From Promethearchaeota archaeon (lineage in GTDB: Archaea; Asgardarchaeota; Lokiarchaeia; Sigynarchaeales; SOKP01): DNA of 10,779 nucleotides. Below are positions 315 through 10,779 of the stretch, piece after piece (positions within the stretch are counted from its first letter, which is position 1; every line of letters starts with the position of its first letter). The notes beneath the pieces are model-generated. The model was not told the origin of the DNA, did not search any database, and saw nothing but the letters and a program-made list of their open reading frames with translations. The stretch covers positions 1-10,779 of the forward strand of contig JAGXOB010000076.1 in assembly GCA_019894735.1 (NCBI GenBank). Direction: 5' to 3'. A program made the translations under genes and the position numbers.

Positions 315-328
315 ATTTAAAACCTTTA
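315..328 (-). promoter_or_regulatory. Shine-Dalgarno-like site overlapping the upstream stop codon
   Basis: On the minus strand the GTPase stop codon TAA (326-328) overlaps AAAGG (327-323), which lies 8 bases before the nitroreductase ATG at 314. The overlap supports this start choice and suggests translation of the second gene by ribosomes finishing the first. Confidence 0.5.
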
Positions 329-1375
329 ATTTTTTTCTACTCTTGATTTTATTACGGATTCCGCTATATCATAAAAGGCATATTCTACATTTTTACCTGT
401 CATAGCGGATGTTTCTATATATTTAAGGTTTAATTCCTTAGCTAATGTTAAAGCTTCAATTAATTTAACTTTACGTACTTCAATAAGATCGCTTTTATTG
501 CCAAAAATATACCCAATCATTTGATGATGATGTTTTTCCATATTTTTCATCACATCTTCATACCAATTTTTAATACTGTTAAATGAGATTCGGTTGGTTA
601 AGTCAAAGATAAGTAGTATCGCCTCTGAACCTTGGTAGAAGTGTCTCCTCATCGTTTGGAACTTATTTTGACCAGCGATATCCCATAATATCGTTTCTAT
701 TACTTTATCATTAGCTTGTATGATCTTCTCGGTAATGCTGACTCCCAGCGTGGGAATATAGGTTCTAAGAAATGCATTATCAGTAAAACGCAAAATAGTT
801 GAGGTTTTTCCGACTCCTGGATCACCTACCACTACGAGTTTGAACCGATAATCAACAATTTTTTCGTCTCTAATAATTACTTCGGGAAATTCTTGAGATG
901 GAGGGAAGGAAATTTCTTTAGCTCTAAAATCGTCTAATAATTGACCTACACTATTTCTTAGGTTATTGATCTCTTCAAAAATTTTTTCTCTATCAGTATT
1001 CTGTTCTTCTAATTCAATGATTTTTCTGACTGTTTCATCAAAAGGGGCCTTAAGGTAGCTCATATATTTATAAAAGACGACATCATCGGCTTCTTTAAAT
1101 AAAAACGTAATTACTGTACGCGCGAACCCTCCCCTTTTGCTTGTATCCTCTCTTTCTATATATTGTATTAATCCTTTTAGTTTTAATGAAGGGAAAGGAA
1201 TTATCAATAAAGAATCTGGCACAGATCCTTGATCCCCTGTGAGAATAGTCACAGATTTAATAGCAACAAGCATTCGTATCGATTCTGGCAAATCTAAAGG
1301 GTCCCAATGGATAGGATCCGGTCCTAATTCATCGTGAATATCGGTATAAATTACAGCGTCAATTAGTTTCTTCAT
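326..1375 (-). CDS. Longin-like domain / coiled coil / Ras-Rab-like small GTPase fusion
   Basis: 349 residues. The C-terminal half (about 177-345) is a complete Ras-superfamily GTPase: G1 'GDPGVGKTS' (184-192), G2 Thr209 in 'YIPTLGVS', G3 'WDIAGQ' (231-236, with the catalytic-type Gln236), G4 'NKSD' (293-296) and G5 'ETSA' (321-324); 'FDLTNRISFNSIKNWYEDV' is Rab/Ras-like. Pro186 sits where Ras has Gly12. Residues 1-110 form an alpha/beta domain that starts 'IYTDIHDELGP', recalling the first strand and loop of longin domains of the NPRL2/FLCN type; I infer a longin-like fold. Residues 111-155 are charged and probably coiled coil. There is no C-terminal Cys, so no prenylation is expected, and no membrane segment. 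The gene leads a unit with the nitroreductase. Its own promoter lies just upstream and predicts a leader of only a few bases. The GTPase call is very sure; the longin call is moderate. Confidence 0.93.
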   Translation of the reverse strand: MKKLIDAVIYTDIHDELGPDPIHWDPLDLPESIRMLVAIKSVTILTGDQGSVPDSLLIIPFPSLKLKGLIQYIEREDTSKRGGFARTVITFLFKEADDVVFYKYMSYLKAPFDETVRKIIELEEQNTDREKIFEEINNLRNSVGQLLDDFRAKEISFPPSQEFPEVIIRDEKIVDYRFKLVVVGDPGVGKTSTILRFTDNAFLRTYIPTLGVSITEKIIQANDKVIETILWDIAGQNKFQTMRRHFYQGSEAILLIFDLTNRISFNSIKNWYEDVMKNMEKHHHQMIGYIFGNKSDLIEVRKVKLIEALTLAKELNLKYIETSAMTGKNVEYAFYDIAESVIKSRVEKN

Positions 1376-3947: not shown

Positions 3948-4265
3948 ATGTCAAATAACAACGATAATTACGAACTAGATTATTATCTAAGTATAATTGA
4001 TTTCTTTCAAAACCAAGATACAAACAGAGAAACAACAGAAATTTGGAGAAACAAATCGTTTATTCAATTAATGAAAGTCTTGAAACGAACAAGAAACAAG
4101 GAGTTCGTAAAAAATGCTATTATCCTTCTTCTCTCTCTTTTTGATGAAACGCCTCCCGATATTTATAATGGTAGGGGAATTGAAGTACATTCGCTAACAA
4201 ATAGCGATAAACTTTCGTACGTTAATCTACTTAAATCAGAATTTGCCAACGATATTCCTAACTAA
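3948..4265 (+). CDS. Hypothetical soluble protein, 105 residues
   Basis: I do not recognise a family. The N-terminus is polar and Asn/Asp-rich ('MSNNNDNYELDYY'), followed by predicted helices 'LSIIDFFQN' (about 14-22), a basic stretch 'IQLMKVLKRTRNKEFVKN' (39-56), a short hydrophobic helix 'AIILLLSLFDE' (57-67), and a Pro/Gly-containing C-terminal third ('TPPDIYNGRGIEVH'). The hydrophobic run is too short and is flanked by charges, so a membrane segment is unlikely. The last helix 'SDKLSYVNLLKSEF' may pack against it. A clear TATA element at a short-leader distance supports the start and the reality of the gene. It sits between the kinase and the giant membrane protein, with its own promoter and a palindrome after it, so it may be an independent unit. 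Confidence 0.65.
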   Translation: MSNNNDNYELDYYLSIIDFFQNQDTNRETTEIWRNKSFIQLMKVLKRTRNKEFVKNAIILLLSLFDETPPDIYNGRGIEVHSLTNSDKLSYVNLLKSEFANDIPN

Positions 4266-4429: not shown

Positions 4430-7400
4430 ATGAAAATAATTTCTAGTACTTCACTTAAAAAAAATAAATCAAGCCAAAGAATAGCGGCTCTTATCATTTT
4501 ATCAGCAGTATTTCTTTCAAGTAGTTTTCTCATCTCAAACTCTAATAATAGTACAGAATTAAACAAAGACTTCAATAACACACCTCAAATACCATCAGTT
4601 GCAGATGTTGATTCAGTTTTATTTGAAGGTAATGAAAATGCTTTAAATATGACCGATTATGGAAATTTGTACGAATACAATCAAGAAATATCCCTATCTA
4701 ATCAAGAAGAACTTAATTTAAATTATTATCTTGATGATGCAAATGATTGGAAAGTTTCAAAAGTTGAGACACAAATAAAAAATATTGAAGATACAAGAAA
4801 TTGGATTAATAACAGTGGATTTCAACCTGTTCAAATTTTCAGAGTATATCAAACATATGAAAGTGCTCATGATTATCTTAATAATAATGATCCATATGCT
4901 GATATCGATCATACTATTTTTGAATCAGGAGCTTACTATTTACGAGTTCATTTTGTAAATATATCATTTGATTATCAAACTGATGTATCCGATTCTGATT
5001 TCATGGTAGTCTTAAATGAATCTCAAAGTGAAGTTCTTGCAGTATCAGGATATAGAGAAGATTTTTACTCACCTTGGTCAATTGGTGAAACCATTTATTT
5101 ATCTTATAGTTCTGATAATAATCCTTCAACAAGGGATTATGGTTATTATATTGATTATTATGAATTAATTAATGCTTCTAGTAATCTAGAAGTAAATTCC
5201 ATTAATTGGAAGGGACGATATTCCCAAAGTGGGACATATGGTTCAAATACCTACGGTTCTGGAAACATTGAATATGCTGATGGAATGTTTATAGGCTATC
5301 ATGGAGGTTGGTATAGTGATATTGAAACGTACGTTTTCTACGAGAACACATTTACAGAATTATACCAAGATAACATTGTTGTTCCACGAGGAAAGGTTTT
5401 AGATGCATATCTAAGTTTTGATTATTATACTCAGTTTGCCCTTGATACAAACAATATAATTATGTATATGAAAATAAATGGAGAAAGGGTTTATTCTAAG
5501 GGATTACTTGATTTAAATACTGAAGGTAAAAATAAATGGCATCACACTAATAATGTGCCAATGTATTTATGGATAAATCAAACTAATATTTTTACTTCAG
5601 GTAATATTAATGATCAAACTCTAAATATATCGTTTGGAATCAGAAATGAAGGATCAAGTACAATATATAGTGGATATGGTGACGGAAATGCAAATTTGAT
5701 ATGGTTCGATAATGTCTCTTTAGCTATAAGCACAATTGCCAATTCCACTCAGGAAGGAATCAACTTAAAGATAAACACACTTGATCTAATAGACACAAAT
5801 GAATGGGGTAAAGCTAATTTGAATCTAACAGATGGGTGGGACACAGATCCTATCAGTTTGAATTTTAATTCAACTTCTCCTTCATTATCTTTTGATTTGA
5901 ATACAATGTTATACGGATATCACGAAACTACTTCAAGAGTAGGTCAAACAACACTCGAAGGAATCTCTTATGAAATCTTAGAAAATGGATCAGTTTATTG
6001 GTACTTTTCACATAATTTTATTAAGCCTTCTTACTATTCAGATTTTGAATTCATAATAGATAAACCCTTTAATTGGGAGTTTTTCTACGCCTTGGACCAA
6101 GCATTAGTTTCTTATCCGTTCGAATATGGAAATGTAGGTGATTCTATATTAAAAATAAATAAATCCAATGACTTACTCCATGGTTGGTGGTCTTTCAAAG
6201 CCACCTCTCCAAATTACCTCGATATCGTAAATACAAAGATGTTGAAACAAGGTGAATGGACACACTCAAGTTTTGATACCGGTGAGTCAACACGGATTAA
6301 AACACAAGTAAATTACAGTAGTGAAATTCCTGATGATATTGAATTAACAGATGTAAATTTAACTATATTTGATCCCGAAGGTAACCAATGGTACTCAGAA
6401 GTAAATTCACCCCTGTCAAACGGAACCGTTTTCTTTTCAGATATAACATTTTCTGCGTTAAACACGACTGGTGGTCAATATGAATACACATTATTCTGGA
6501 GCAATGGAACCGCATTAGGTGGTCTTAAATCAGATTTTATTGTCAATCATCAAAGTAAACTTAAACTATTAAAACCTGACGACGCAAAAATCGACCTGAG
6601 AACTGATGGCTTCGTTGGTGACATCATCCCCGTAAGAATTATCTTAACGGATCCAGAAAATAATTTATCCATTTCAGATGCGATTGTTTCTTATAATTGG
6701 ACAGGGGGAACAACTCTTAATTTTACTGAAGCTGCGATTGGTGTCTATGAGATCATTCTTTATACTGCCGATTTAGCTTCGAGAGGGTTATACGAGATAG
6801 TAATAAGTTCGTCGAAATTAGGTTTTATTGATAGTAATCTTACGCTTGAGGTAAATTTAGGCGAGGAAACAGGCTTACAAAGACTTGAATCTGAATATAA
6901 TATAGAACTCCACGCAAATAGCACTATTAAGTTCAAGTTTACTGACTTTAGTGGCGACGGTATTGATGGAGCTACGGTTAACATTAGTATAAGTAACCCC
7001 TCACATTATTATATTGATAATCTTGGTAATGGAACCTATGATATTGAATTTAGTACGTCCTATATTACTAATATCGGAATATATCAACTGAACTTTAGTT
7101 TTTCGGCAACGGGGTATGAACCTCAGTATTACGTCTACCAATTTCAAATTGTAGAGCAGTCTGTAAATCTTTCAGTTTTTATTAATTCTGTCAGCATTCA
7201 AGGCAATTCTCTTCACGAATTTACATTTTTTGATACAATTAATGTTTCTGCTAAAGCGATGTCAATCATAGATGAAGTATATATTTCAGGAGGTAATTTT
7301 ACATGGATTAGCGCAACTTATGAAAAAAATTTAACAGAATACTCAGGTAATTGGTATAACTCATCGATTGAATGTCTGCCAGAATATTTCTCATCTGGAA

Positions 7401-8620
7401 TCAATTTCATTTATCTAAAGTTTTACCATTCGAATTATAGAACGCAAACTTTTGGCTTCGAAATATTGATAGATCGAATTGAATTCGATGTTGATATAGT
7501 TGGACATATAGATTCAAACCCAACCATAAAAGCAGAAATAGGAGGATCTTTAGTGCTTCAAATAGAATTGTTGGATATCGAAACCGATCTACCTATTGTA
7601 AACGCAACTGTTTTATACGAATGGACTTATGGAGTAGGAGAATTAACTGAAGTAAGTCCAGGCACATATCAGCTATCTGTAGGATTACCTGAAAACCTCC
7701 AAGGAAATTTCATATTCAATCTCATTATATCGAAAGAAGGAACAGTGTATAAAACGACGCAATCTTCTTTTCTCTTAGTTATAGGTGAGCCAGAATTTCC
7801 TACTTTCATAATTTGGATTATAATATTAATTTCGGCTGCAATTATTAGCACATTAGGCATAATGAGCTTGAGATCCTACGTTATTCTGCCAAGGAGGAGG
7901 AGGAGGGAAGCAGAATTACTATCTAGAACCCAAAAATTTAAGGATATACAAAATATCCAAGCAATCGTTGCAATTCATCGAGATAGCGGAATTCCTCTAT
8001 ATACCAAAAGCTATTCAATTCTTGAAAAGCATAAGAAAGAAATCTTCTCTGGTTTCATTCAGGCAATTATAACGGTTGGAGAAGAGATGGTAGGAAAACG
8101 AGGAATGGAAGGAGAATTAGTCGAACCTGCCAAAGAAGATGGTACTCGAACGATTTTAGAGCTGGATTTCAAATATTTTTATTGTTTGATATGCGATCGC
8201 CAAGATTTACGGATCATTTTCATTCTCACTGAAAGAGCTTCTGACCTAATGAAAAAACAGATTTCTGATTTGTCTTTAGGGGCTTTGTTAGAACTTTCAG
8301 AGCAAATAGGGAATTGGGATGGGGCTATTCATGAATTTGAAACAAAATTTCCCCCAATTATCAACAAATACGTAGAATTAGCCTATAAAGAAGCATTTAC
8401 GATAAATAACGCAGAATTCGTGGCTAAAATAAGAAAAGAAGGAGATTTAAATTCAATGGAAACCCGTATTTTAAACGTTATCTATTCTATTGCTAAGAGT
8501 AAAAAAGAATTTCACTTGGATACAATATTTGAACTTATTCATGAGAAAAATGAAAATATTGTTATCGATGGCATAGAGACCTTGATAAAGAAGCAACTTA
8601 TTATACCATCAACAAAATAA
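4430..8620 (+). CDS. Giant receptor-like membrane protein: Ig-like ectodomain, TM helix, cytoplasmic longin-like domain and winged-helix-like tail
   Basis: 1396 residues. A basic start ('KKNKSSQR') and hydrophobic segment 18-36 form a signal peptide or anchor. Residues 40-1120 are extracellular by inference: about 35 N-x-S/T sequons, a single Cys (982), and mostly beta structure. About 255-435 resembles a jelly roll of the carbohydrate-binding kind, ending 'IWFDNVSLAI'. From about 705 to 1118 there are four degenerate repeats of roughly 100 residues; the first and last share 'AIVSYNWTGG'/'ATVLYEWTYG' followed by 'GVYEI'/'GTYQL'. A transmembrane helix (1124-1148) is followed by Arg5 (1155-1159), so the C-terminus is cytoplasmic. 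Residues 1174-1325 fit a longin-like beta-beta-alpha-beta-beta-beta-alpha-alpha order, with 'IQAIVAIHRDSGIPLYTKSY' and 'IFSGFIQAIITVGEEM'. Residues 1340-1396 look like a winged helix ('METRILNVIYSIA', 'IETLIKKQLII'). Topology is confident; ligand and partners are unknown. Binding of a small GTPase is my inference. Confidence 0.85.
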   Translation: MKIISSTSLKKNKSSQRIAALIILSAVFLSSSFLISNSNNSTELNKDFNNTPQIPSVADVDSVLFEGNENALNMTDYGNLYEYNQEISLSNQEELNLNYYLDDANDWKVSKVETQIKNIEDTRNWINNSGFQPVQIFRVYQTYESAHDYLNNNDPYADIDHTIFESGAYYLRVHFVNISFDYQTDVSDSDFMVVLNESQSEVLAVSGYREDFYSPWSIGETIYLSYSSDNNPSTRDYGYYIDYYELINASSNLEVNSINWKGRYSQSGTYGSNTYGSGNIEYADGMFIGYHGGWYSDIETYVFYENTFTELYQDNIVVPRGKVLDAYLSFDYYTQFALDTNNIIMYMKINGERVYSKGLLDLNTEGKNKWHHTNNVPMYLWINQTNIFTSGNINDQTLNISFGIRNEGSSTIYSGYGDGNANLIWFDNVSLAISTIANSTQEGINLKINTLDLIDTNEWGKANLNLTDGWDTDPISLNFNSTSPSLSFDLNTMLYGYHETTSRVGQTTLEGISYEILENGSVYWYFSHNFIKPSYYSDFEFIIDKPFNWEFFYALDQALVSYPFEYGNVGDSILKINKSNDLLHGWWSFKATSPNYLDIVNTKMLKQGEWTHSSFDTGESTRIKTQVNYSSEIPDDIELTDVNLTIFDPEGNQWYSEVNSPLSNGTVFFSDITFSALNTTGGQYEYTLFWSNGTALGGLKSDFIVNHQSKLKLLKPDDAKIDLRTDGFVGDIIPVRIILTDPENNLSISDAIVSYNWTGGTTLNFTEAAIGVYEIILYTADLASRGLYEIVISSSKLGFIDSNLTLEVNLGEETGLQRLESEYNIELHANSTIKFKFTDFSGDGIDGATVNISISNPSHYYIDNLGNGTYDIEFSTSYITNIGIYQLNFSFSATGYEPQYYVYQFQIVEQSVNLSVFINSVSIQGNSLHEFTFFDTINVSAKAMSIIDEVYISGGNFTWISATYEKNLTEYSGNWYNSSIECLPEYFSSGINFIYLKFYHSNYRTQTFGFEILIDRIEFDVDIVGHIDSNPTIKAEIGGSLVLQIELLDIETDLPIVNATVLYEWTYGVGELTEVSPGTYQLSVGLPENLQGNFIFNLIISKEGTVYKTTQSSFLLVIGEPEFPTFIIWIIILISAAIISTLGIMSLRSYVILPRRRRREAELLSRTQKFKDIQNIQAIVAIHRDSGIPLYTKSYSILEKHKKEIFSGFIQAIITVGEEMVGKRGMEGELVEPAKEDGTRTILELDFKYFYCLICDRQDLRIIFILTERASDLMKKQISDLSLGALLELSEQIGNWDGAIHEFETKFPPIINKYVELAYKEAFTINNAEFVAKIRKEGDLNSMETRILNVIYSIAKSKKEFHLDTIFELIHEKNENIVIDGIETLIKKQLIIPSTK
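7892..7906 (+). repeat. (AGG)5 run encoding the Arg5 stop-transfer cluster
   Basis: Five consecutive AGG codons (residues 1155-1159) follow the transmembrane helix. They form a polypurine run resembling repeated Shine-Dalgarno cores. Other Arg codons nearby are AGA or CGA, so the uniform choice stands out. Confidence 0.8.
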
Positions 8621-8660: not shown

Positions 8661-9278
8661 ATGAGTACTCCAAATGATTTAAGGTTTGAATGCGTACATT
8701 GTGGAAACTGTTGTACTGATTTAAACACACTTGTTAATACTACCTATTTAGATATTCTACGCATCAGAGATGGCTTAAATCTGACTCAAGATGAAGTGAT
8801 TGAAATTTTAGGATTTTATGTATTCGAAAAAAAACCATCAACTAAAGAAATAGATAGGATGGTTCTTCCACCTATTGAGACAGAAAGAGGTTTAGCTTTT
8901 ACAGGGCTTAAGAAAAAACAGAGTGGCCAGTGTTACTTTTATAACAACAAATCAAAGAGATGTTCAATTTATAAATTTAGACCGAATTTTTGTAGGACTT
9001 TTCCCTTTACTTTTAAGGTCACAGTTAACAGAAAAAGTTCAGGTGAAAATGCGATTAAAGTATTCTACACAGAAACAGGGCTTCAATATTGTCAAGGAAT
9101 AGGAGATAAATCTCCTATTATCGAGAAGGATAATTGGATTCAATTAGGTCAAAGAGTTCTCCAAGATTTAGCTAAAAACACAGTTTTGATTAAGAAATGG
9201 AATGAGAGCGTTAAAAATAAGGTAATATTACCTTCTGTAAATAATTTTATTCTAACGATTTTTAATTTAGATCACTAA
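8661..9278 (+). CDS. YkgJ-type cysteine-cluster (putative metal-binding) protein
   Basis: 205 residues. The family pattern is complete: 'FECVHCGNCC' near the N-terminus (Cys11, 14, 17, 18), then 'GQCYFYNNKSKRCSIYKFRP' (Cys91, Cys101) and 'FCRTFPF' (Cys111), with an extra Cys144 in 'LQYCQG'. In this UPF0153/CxxCxxCC group the cysteines are thought to bind zinc or an Fe-S cluster; the biochemical role is generally unknown, and some relatives accompany flagellar or methylation functions. No signal peptide or membrane segment, so it is cytoplasmic. It starts 40 bases after the surface-protein gene on the same strand, across a poly-T tract. I see no good TATA at the right distance, so partial co-transcription with the surface protein is plausible but unproven. 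The ATG at 8661 places the Cys motif at the usual N-terminal position. Family assignment is strong; function is not known. Confidence 0.88.
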   Translation: MSTPNDLRFECVHCGNCCTDLNTLVNTTYLDILRIRDGLNLTQDEVIEILGFYVFEKKPSTKEIDRMVLPPIETERGLAFTGLKKKQSGQCYFYNNKSKRCSIYKFRPNFCRTFPFTFKVTVNRKSSGENAIKVFYTETGLQYCQGIGDKSPIIEKDNWIQLGQRVLQDLAKNTVLIKKWNESVKNKVILPSVNNFILTIFNLDH

Positions 9279-9283
9279 ATTTA

Positions 9284-9312
9284 CACTCTCATTTAACAAT
9301 ATTGCGAGAGTG
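9284..9312. terminator. Hairpin at the convergent gene ends
   Basis: CACTCTC (9284-9290) and GAGAGTG (9306-9312) are exact reverse complements around 15 bases. The element lies just past the stop of the cysteine-cluster gene and overlaps the last codons and stop (9293-9295) of the opposing gene, so it could fold in both transcripts. The GC content of the arms is well above the local average, which argues against pure chance. Confidence 0.4.
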
Positions 9313-10779
9313 CCAATAACATCCAAAATAACATACGCAACTCAATTTTGAATGCGATTTTATTTTGATAACAATTAAATTCACCAAAATCTTGGCTGTC
9401 TATAAAAAATTTTAAATTTTGATTTAAAAACTGTAGTAACTCTGAAATTATGCTTATGTCTTTCCCAGTCGAATCTAGTAATACTAGTGTTAATAATGTC
9501 CTAGCGGTGTCTGTTGCGTTTCCGTTAATAGATCCATTGGATTGTATTTTCTTTTCTAATTCGGTTAAATAAGGAGCTTGCAAATTAGTAAAATCAAATC
9601 TAGCATCTAACAATTTCAATAAACCTAAGTAAAAAAACATATCTGACAACTGATATTCTTCTGAATTAAATAAATTAAGGTTTGCTAAAGGTTCAATAAG
9701 ATGCCTTTTATTTGTTATAATTCCACCACTTTTTTTTAACATCTTTAAGCTTAAAATAGTGAAAAAGTTAAGAGTTATTTTATCGGGAATGAAAGGGTTG
9801 AGGTCATTTTCTAAAAACATTTCGATATCCAATAAATCAACCACTTCTGAATTATTCAATAACTCTAATTCAGAAAGAATGGAAAGTCCATAGTATATAC
9901 TAATCGGGTTCGGTATGTGGTACCTCCCAGTACTGAAAACTTTTCCACTGATAAAATTATTTATAACATTTTTAATATACCCTGGTTCTAATTGTAGTTC
10001 TTCTCCTAACATTTTAAAAATATTCACGACATAAAACAAATTTTCTAAATCTAGATAATCAGGTGAAGTTGTAACATATTTTCTTAATTGTTTTATATCG
10101 ATTATTATTTTATCAGCAATAGATTGATTTAATTTAGGGAAACTCACGAAATAATTCAAGAGTGAAGGTGTCTTCTCCTCATTTTGGATAATTTCTTTTT
10201 TTTTTTGATTTGAGGAATGACTGATAGTTTCTATGTTATCTCGGCGAGCTTTTTGTAGTGCTTTTAATATATCTTCTTCAGATATAATTTCCTTAGGATT
10301 ATCTATCTGGAAAATTTCTTCTTTAAAGGTGAAATTAGAAGGATTGAAGTATTTTAACAAGTCGTTGTTTATTATATTGAAGTGCTCCTTTAATTTCTCT
10401 GAAATTATGTTATCTTTTCTAAATTTATTTAGTTTATTACGAAATTCAAGGGGCAATAGATCAAAAAGATCTAAATTTTCGATAATTAAGTCATTTTTTT
10501 CTATTAAATATTCTGAAATTATAATAAATAAGTGTTTATTGTTATATTCGTTTAATCCCATTTGTAGAAAAGCTAAATAATCACTAAACTTGTTTTTATT
10601 TTTTTTGTATAACTCTTCAAATAATTGACGATCTGCCATCAACTTACTTTTAGATACTCCTATTGTAATTAGTGCCGAGTTTGTCGCTGCGATAATCGAA
10701 AGAATATTGTCTTCCGTATCTTTTTGTTCATTTGAATCTATTTTTAACGATATATCAATATTTTTAGAGAGGATAAGGT
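9293..10779 (-). CDS. Helical protein with alpha/alpha-toroid-like C-terminal half, 5' end beyond the window
   Basis: The frame from the stop at 9293 stays open through an ATG at 10639 and a TTG at 10642 to the window edge, adding about 45 sense codons ('ILSIIAATNSALITIGVSKS' is encoded upstream of the ATG). I therefore call it 5'-partial, at least 495 residues. No Shine-Dalgarno sits at a proper distance from the ATG at 10639. The first third is charged and helical, with a Lys/Glu-rich linker (about 10150-10260). The C-terminal half (about 9300-10120) alternates helices in the manner of terpene-cyclase/prenyltransferase-like alpha/alpha toroids: a 'TGRYHIPNPISIYYGLSIL' block (around 9880-9930) and an 'NGSINGNATDTARTLLTLVL' block (9482-9541) resemble the repeated G-x-aromatic/small loop followed by helix. 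No catalytic DxDD or metal-binding prenyltransferase residues are evident, so a structural or binding role is likelier than cyclase chemistry. Family and function remain uncertain. Confidence 0.7.
   Translation of the reverse strand, partial: LILSKNIDISLKIDSNEQKDTEDNILSIIAATNSALITIGVSKSKLMADRQLFEELYKKNKNKFSDYLAFLQMGLNEYNNKHLFIIISEYLIEKNDLIIENLDLFDLLPLEFRNKLNKFRKDNIISEKLKEHFNIINNDLLKYFNPSNFTFKEEIFQIDNPKEIISEEDILKALQKARRDNIETISHSSNQKKKEIIQNEEKTPSLLNYFVSFPKLNQSIADKIIIDIKQLRKYVTTSPDYLDLENLFYVVNIFKMLGEELQLEPGYIKNVINNFISGKVFSTGRYHIPNPISIYYGLSILSELELLNNSEVVDLLDIEMFLENDLNPFIPDKITLNFFTILSLKMLKKSGGIITNKRHLIEPLANLNLFNSEEYQLSDMFFYLGLLKLLDARFDFTNLQAPYLTELEKKIQSNGSINGNATDTARTLLTLVLLDSTGKDISIISELLQFLNQNLKFFIDSQDFGEFNCYQNKIAFKIELRMLFWMLLALSQYC

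Follow-up and report, generated by a model that had tools for sequence, protein, structure and literature searches.

A putative single-pass Asgard receptor with a predicted longin tail and family members that adjoin small GTPases

A 10,779-nucleotide stretch of a Promethearchaeota archaeon (contig JAGXOB010000076.1, hereafter the window) encodes a large surface protein whose tail is predicted to carry a longin domain beneath the membrane (Table 1). On balance we favor reading it as a single-pass Asgard receptor, or signalling adhesin, whose longin tail docks or regulates Ras-superfamily GTPases. The longin under a variable ectodomain, together with the frequent GTPase neighbors of the family, is best read as belonging to a receptor that would position or regulate GTPases. 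In the proposed mechanism, a beta-sandwich stalk would carry a variable, glycosylated tip of CUB and jelly-roll type that meets something outside the cell, and changes in clustering or conformation would pass through the helix. In the cytoplasm the longin, probably dimeric, would then dock and regulate GTPases of the Arf, Rag or Rab kind at the membrane (by exchange, hydrolysis or recruitment), while the winged-helix-like end may bind further proteins. Ligand binding, dimerization, GTPase binding and the direction of regulation are steps that we infer.

Table 1. Features of the window and of the receptor-like protein.
Feature	Residues	Position	Strand	Basis or remark
Rab-like GTPase, N-terminal domain common with the Rag-type fusion		326..1375	-	sequence profiles
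105-aa protein (orf105), upstream of receptor		3948..4265	+	kept in 18/23 loci
Receptor-like protein	1396 aa	4430..8620	+	ATG start; stop within coordinates
N-terminal hydrophobic segment	18-36	4481..4537	+	signal peptide or anchor; hydropathy
Apparently exchangeable ectodomain tip	~100-600	4727..6229	+	pairwise identity profiles; tree conflict
CUB-like beta domain	137-250	4838..5179	+	structure model
MAM/CBM-like jelly roll	251-435 (first strand near 123)	5180..5734	+	structure model
Putative beta-sandwich stalk	601-1115	6230..7774	+	Ig/Invasin-D3-like by sub-threshold Pfam and relatives' domains
Transmembrane helix	~1125-1147 (placed by eye)	7802..7870	+	sequence, hydropathy
Arg5, cytoplasmic side	1155-1159	7892..7906	+	sequence; charge asymmetry in 121/121 proteins
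Longin domain (predicted)	1174-1321	7949..8392	+	AF2, Foldseek, VIA
Winged-helix-like segment, acidic	1328-1393	8411..8608	+	model secondary structure; charge
CxxCxxCC (PF03692) protein		8661..9278	+	40 bp past receptor; kept in 28/34 loci
449-aa ORF (orf526 in loci)		9293..10642	-	frame open to window edge; kept in 25/31

The open reading frame bears out the layout given in the initial annotation, namely a hydrophobic N-terminus, a sequon-rich ectodomain of about 1080 residues, a single C-terminal helix, Arg5 and a tail of about 240 residues (237 lie C-terminal of Arg5). Pfam and NCBIfam together place zero families on the receptor above cut-off, and up to E 1 they return no kinase family. 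Invasin_D3 (Pfam) matches residues 828-891 below cut-off (E 0.022), and the ectodomains of relatives match MG4, Big and CarboxypepD_reg, some of them below cut-off. The ectodomain is of beta type, as had been proposed, but the Ig-like description does not apply along its whole length: a CUB-like domain and a MAM/CBM-like jelly roll are modeled for residues ~137-435.

The AF2 model of the tail has the bb-a-bbb-aa topology and five-stranded sheet of a longin fold, and a fold search matches it to solved longins, with the trafficking proteins VAMP7, Sec22b and AP sigma as best matches. Model confidence (pLDDT in ten-residue blocks) is mostly 74-92, with 44-67 over model residues 31-70, which hold the first helix and a loop. 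At the sequence level, the Pfam matches of 39 family members include no longin profile, distant relatives give sub-threshold matches only (Sybindin 0.04, Fuz_longin_1 0.088, RIMC1 0.038), and PDB sequence searches with the tail, as a single sequence and as a profile, returned chance-level matches only. The predicted core agrees with the longin assigned earlier to residues 1174-1325, and no structure of another kind was found there.

A cytoplasmic position of the tail agrees with both sequon bias and charge asymmetry. Residues 41-1140 of the receptor hold 33 sequons compared with 17.2 +/- 3.6 in shuffled sequences, a count reached in 0 of 1000 shuffles, and the last 231 residues hold zero. Across 121 proteins (that of the window and 120 relatives), sequons occur at 3.33 per 100 aa in the ectodomain (1.60 when shuffled) and at 0.21 per 100 aa in the tail (0.50 when shuffled). 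In the same set, the 25 residues past the helix contain a mean of 7.8 K+R (minimum 7) and the 15 residues preceding it a mean of 0.31, with more after than before in 121/121. These sequence signals are consistent with a tail on the inside, as originally proposed, with no sign of an outside placement, and we infer that the ectodomain is glycosylated.

Of the earlier proposal of an Asgard single-pass receptor, the Asgard origin holds in a genome scan (35 loci, all Lokiarchaeota or Lokiarchaeia) and the single pass is consistent with the signals above, but the idea of one receptor gives way to a multi-paralog family that is phylum-wide. Residues 1135-1396 match 163 proteins at E<=1e-3, and among the matches listed (120 of the 163) the organism names are those of Asgard MAGs (Loki-, Prometh-, Hermod-, Hod-, Heimdall- and Thorarchaeota); one of the matches listed is from a sediment metagenome. 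Thirteen Lokiarchaeota/Lokiarchaeia genomes carry 4-9 matches each, usually one close ortholog (E ~1e-99 or better) and several paralogs. At the level of the phylum, 198/227 genomes match at E<=1e-3, of which the weakest matches may be generic longins, and at the level of the class 39/83 match at E<=1e-60. Copy numbers are lower bounds, because the phylum scan scored no more than 12 candidates per genome and another scan no more than 8.

Loci beyond the orthologs often show the same layout: of 30, sampled in 23 genomes picked to lie outside the ortholog group, 18 have one hydrophobic helix that ends ~20 residues ahead of the longin. One further locus (L107) has seven hydrophobic helices before the longin, and 11/30 have no helix within the 1.5-kb flank. 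The profile of a 750-residue paralog class matches the receptor over 233 columns at 99.4%. In soluble paralogs an MIT-like tail scores under the Pfam cut-off.

The genes around the receptor lie on both strands and thus represent a conserved order rather than an operon; common descent alone can preserve gene order. Counted over loci with enough sequence (at >45% identity for the upstream GTPase and E<=1e-6 for other genes), the downstream side keeps a methyltransferase (25/30 loci), orf164 (24/30), a 211-residue protein that is longin-like by eye (21/25) and a transglutaminase-like protein (19/25). Upstream genes are mostly less kept (PfkB 7/21, OGG 10/20, orf89 7/20). A homolog of the 449-aa ORF has a weak prenyltransferase-toroid match. 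The neighborhood is absent in 6/34 loci: L031, L033 and L034, which are paralogs at 37-38% identity, and L017, L018 and L032. When profiles of the 211-residue neighbor ('LonginWH') and the receptor tail are compared, the first strands and helix look similar, but at a probability of just 6% (E 0.006) this likeness is a lead only.

A point new to this analysis is a Rag-type GTPase fusion of 470-500 residues, found 4-8 kb downstream of the receptor in 19 of the 23 loci with room for it. It combines a Gtr1/RagA core (E 1e-24) with a sub-threshold N-terminal folliculin match (0.003). Its C-terminal part looks roadblock-like by eye only, and the window ends short of where the gene would lie. The N-terminal domains of the Rag-type and the upstream Rab-like fusion match each other (99.1%) and not the receptor tail in profile comparison, and that of the Rab-like fusion is probably a longin. 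The Rab-like fusion itself lies beside the receptor only in its nearest relatives (5/20 loci) and was therefore rejected as a general partner.

We further note, also beyond the initial annotation, that paralogs with a transmembrane longin appear to adjoin small GTPases above expectation, including in conserved adjacent pairs. We considered 26 longin genes, which make up the full set of A2 matches with E<=1e-8 from four of those 13 genomes, and GTPases on the same contigs, with some far ones left out. For five of the 26 a GTPase lies on the same strand within 500 bp, and for 21 none does (expected 0.34, p 2e-5, an optimistic value because the 500-bp limit was chosen once cases had been seen and the five pairs include two that are orthologs). 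Within 3 kb the count is 9/26 (expected 2.9, p 0.0016). Some of these neighbors are due to chance, because Ras-family matches number 68, 78, 82 and 53 in the four genomes and 53-87 across six Loki genomes. The receptor's own ortholog has no GTPase within 3 kb in any of the four.

The adjacent pairs include an Arf-type GTPase family (Arf E 3e-24) that has a longin directly ahead in 7/30 loci and none in the flank of 22/30; an eighth scripted case (L139), a 160-aa convergent fragment, was not counted, and two of the seven pairs are already within the 26-gene count. In each of the seven longins, 225-233 residues separate a hydrophobic helix from the end of the protein. In at least 18 genomes, a different GTPase family is convergent with a longin of a second class at a distance of 1.5-4.6 kb, and the claim is limited to these because the 23 longin matches behind the count were hand-picked, mostly with a GTPase on the same contig. 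A P-loop was seen by eye in 8/8 of the adjacent or nearby GTPases read out. Genomic context thus supports a putative link from receptor to small GTPase. Against it stand excerpts of PMC10933270, according to which operons of strain MK-D1 generally do not combine genes for GTPases with those for roadblock, longin or TRAPPC3 proteins.

The alternative that survives best, although we consider it unlikely, is a surface adhesin or coat protein in which the longin is a mere sorting or assembly tag and no signalling takes place. Adhesin-type beta domains in the stalk and in relatives fit this reading, as do length classes among relatives that suggest varying repeat number and the trafficking proteins at the head of the fold matches; some longins (SNAREs, AP sigma) are not known to regulate GTPases. 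What a tag needs, however, is exceeded by the tail identity of at least 48% in 32/35 loci and by the GTPase neighbors of the paralogs. The many surface proteins on Loki cells, mentioned in parts of PMC9834061, would also suit an adhesin.

The ectodomain tip appears to have been swapped between lineages independently of the tail, a feature the initial annotation did not include. In pairwise profiles, identity falls within the tip and rises again on either side, with the tip end differing from pair to pair (~500 to ~600). The conflict between trees is consistent with such independent movement; the trees cover 43 of 106 long relatives, author-chosen and built by a quick method, the tested clades were named after the trees were seen, and P0116 sits on a long branch when the tail is used for the tree. 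Pfam on 22 tips gave chance-level matches only, and a viral fold library gave mostly phage-tail or unnamed matches at low TM scores, which were set aside. The exchange and the CUB/CBM-like tip would suit a recognition protein under diversifying selection, for virus attachment or kin or partner recognition, in which the longin would act in uptake or membrane remodelling once contact is made. We assign this reading a small probability; it is compatible with a GTPase-regulating receptor rather than opposed to it, and some of the apparent exchange could be an artifact of chimeric assemblies.

The tail extends past the longin into the winged-helix-like segment, an addition to the earlier description. 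Fold-search rows for the tail mostly span 5-156, so that this part is barely covered. A distant relative (L079) has Pfam HTH_47 at the matching place. Despite its winged-helix-like end and a Sar-family match at residues 1328-1392 below cut-off (E 0.025), a membrane-tethered transcription regulator that binds DNA directly or after cleavage is very improbable, and DNA binding is disfavored because this acidic segment averages a net charge of -1.3 in 39 sequences and the presumed recognition helix, placed from the model, has no positive charge (mean -1.8, range -4 to 0, none above 0 in the same 39).

Asgard archaea are the closest prokaryotic kin of eukaryotes, and eukaryotes use longin domains around small GTPase switches. 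We tentatively suggest, with less assurance than for the receptor reading itself, that the longin, in place of a kinase, cyclase or chemotaxis domain, may be the output of an Asgard receptor class of its own. It would lie under single-pass, exchangeable-tip ectodomains and seven-helix sensors, each with its own Arf/Rag/Rab-like GTPase; this class would predate eukaryotes, and longin GTPase regulators could descend from it. The GTPase neighbors of relatives hint at such a receptor-to-GTPase route older than eukaryotes. The family supplies concrete receptor candidates for signal input into Asgard GTPase switches and its paralogs supply concrete receptor-GTPase gene pairs, so that one can test in vitro whether GTPase signalling at the cell surface arose before eukaryotes.

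The initial annotation's suggestion that this architecture is a candidate for an undescribed system accords with a literature search of titles, abstracts and excerpts, with few subscription journals, which found no such description. Longin SNAREs (VAMP7, Sec22, Ykt6), among the best fold matches of the tail, carry the longin at the N-terminus, ahead of a SNARE motif and a C-terminal anchor, and are not known to have a large ectodomain, whereas the receptor longin sits after the transmembrane helix and is followed only by the winged-helix-like segment. In NPRL2/NPRL3 (GATOR1) a longin is followed by a winged helix, and the modeled order of the receptor tail agrees, within the scant fold-search coverage of its winged-helix part; a KICSTOR-GATOR1 chain ranks 13 in Foldseek (E 1.7e-3), but with an rmsd of 13.7 the two chains superpose poorly along the match. 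NPRL proteins are not known to have a transmembrane helix or ectodomain.

Asgard longins, roadblocks and GTPase-longin/roadblock fusions are already known (Tran et al. 2024, PMC10933270), and the receptor shares their phylum and fold class. Excerpts of that paper count 37 Rab-like, 38 roadblock and 41 longin domains in Loki genomes, describe longin/roadblock dimers as platforms for small GTPases and note that genome layout makes it hard to match GTPases to their regulators. Its design of a GTPase between longin and roadblock is resembled by a neighbor gene at the receptor locus. The word 'transmembrane' occurs nowhere in the text of that paper and its excerpts describe no transmembrane longin, while the longin of the receptor forms the tail of a large surface protein. 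A figure legend in PMC9834061 has the categories 'longin' and 'NPRL2-like longin'. ESCRT-linked multidomain Asgard longins carry adaptin-appendage, Ig-like, TPR or HTH/PCI domains; Pfam finds none of their cytoplasmic partner domains in the receptor, and the portions seen of PMC10936438 do not describe a transmembrane receptor layout for them.

In how it works, the system that comes closest is the Streptomyces conservon, as outlined in parts of PMC13343842, which comprises a histidine-kinase-like sensor (CvnA), a roadblock protein (CvnB), CvnC and a Ras-like GTPase (CvnD). Both would join a sensor, a platform of the roadblock class and a small GTPase; in the conservon the sensor is kinase-like and separate from the roadblock, whereas the receptor, which matches no kinase family, carries the platform fold in the same polypeptide as the putative sensor.

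Directly downstream of the receptor gene, the gene for a CxxCxxCC protein is kept in 28 of 34 loci, and its product is possibly a maturation partner. The conserved convergent gene beyond it gave two sub-threshold matches, to a prenyltransferase toroid (0.0003) and to ribophorin II (0.0017). The receptor's conserved locus also includes the transglutaminase-core gene, whose product, as judged by eye, carries a signal as well as a hydrophobic helix near the C-terminus. Close to this locus in L001 lies the roadblock-like gene.

Features of the conserved locus and longin relatives (L numbers denote loci from Asgard genome scans)
Feature	Coordinates	Strand	Basis or position
CxxCxxCC metal-chelating protein	window 8661-9278		40 bp after receptor
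Conserved convergent gene	window 9293-10642; counterpart L001:11402-12979		
Transglutaminase-core protein	L001:15958-17178	+	E 1.4e-23
Roadblock-like protein, 125 aa	L001:20310-20687	-	Robl_LC7 E 0.0017, below cut-off
Seven-helix longin-like protein	L107:691-1815	+	predicted hydrophobic helices
Soluble paralog, 457 aa	L069:1765-3135		
Soluble paralog, 457 aa	L075:6072-7442		
Soluble paralog, 457 aa	L081:5537-6907		
361-aa relative	L079:5748-6830	-	HTH match
Longin-wH-profile relative	L112:1-2217	+	profile match, Pfam

Several relatives lie beside GTPase genes. In the soluble paralogs a longin and a winged-helix-like part are joined to a helical tail, whose matches to MIT stay sub-threshold (E 0.027, 1.3e-4 and 2.6e-4). 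Three GTPase genes follow this type of paralog in the Loki genomes G001 and G003, but not in G009 and G013. The L107 protein has its longin-like C-terminal domain after the seven helices. Relatives of this type (about 360-440 aa) have matches in 171 of 227 genomes at E<=1e-5, many covering the longin part only, and a Ras-family GTPase gene adjoins theirs in G001 (C177) and G003 (C56). A Rab-like GTPase gene (L079:6902-7435) adjoins that of the 361-aa relative, in which HTH_47 scores above and NPRL3-HTH below cut-off.

In the L112 product, PCI, DDRGK and E3_UFM1_ligase all exceed their Pfam cut-offs, and these sequence matches suggest a possible link to UFMylation factors.
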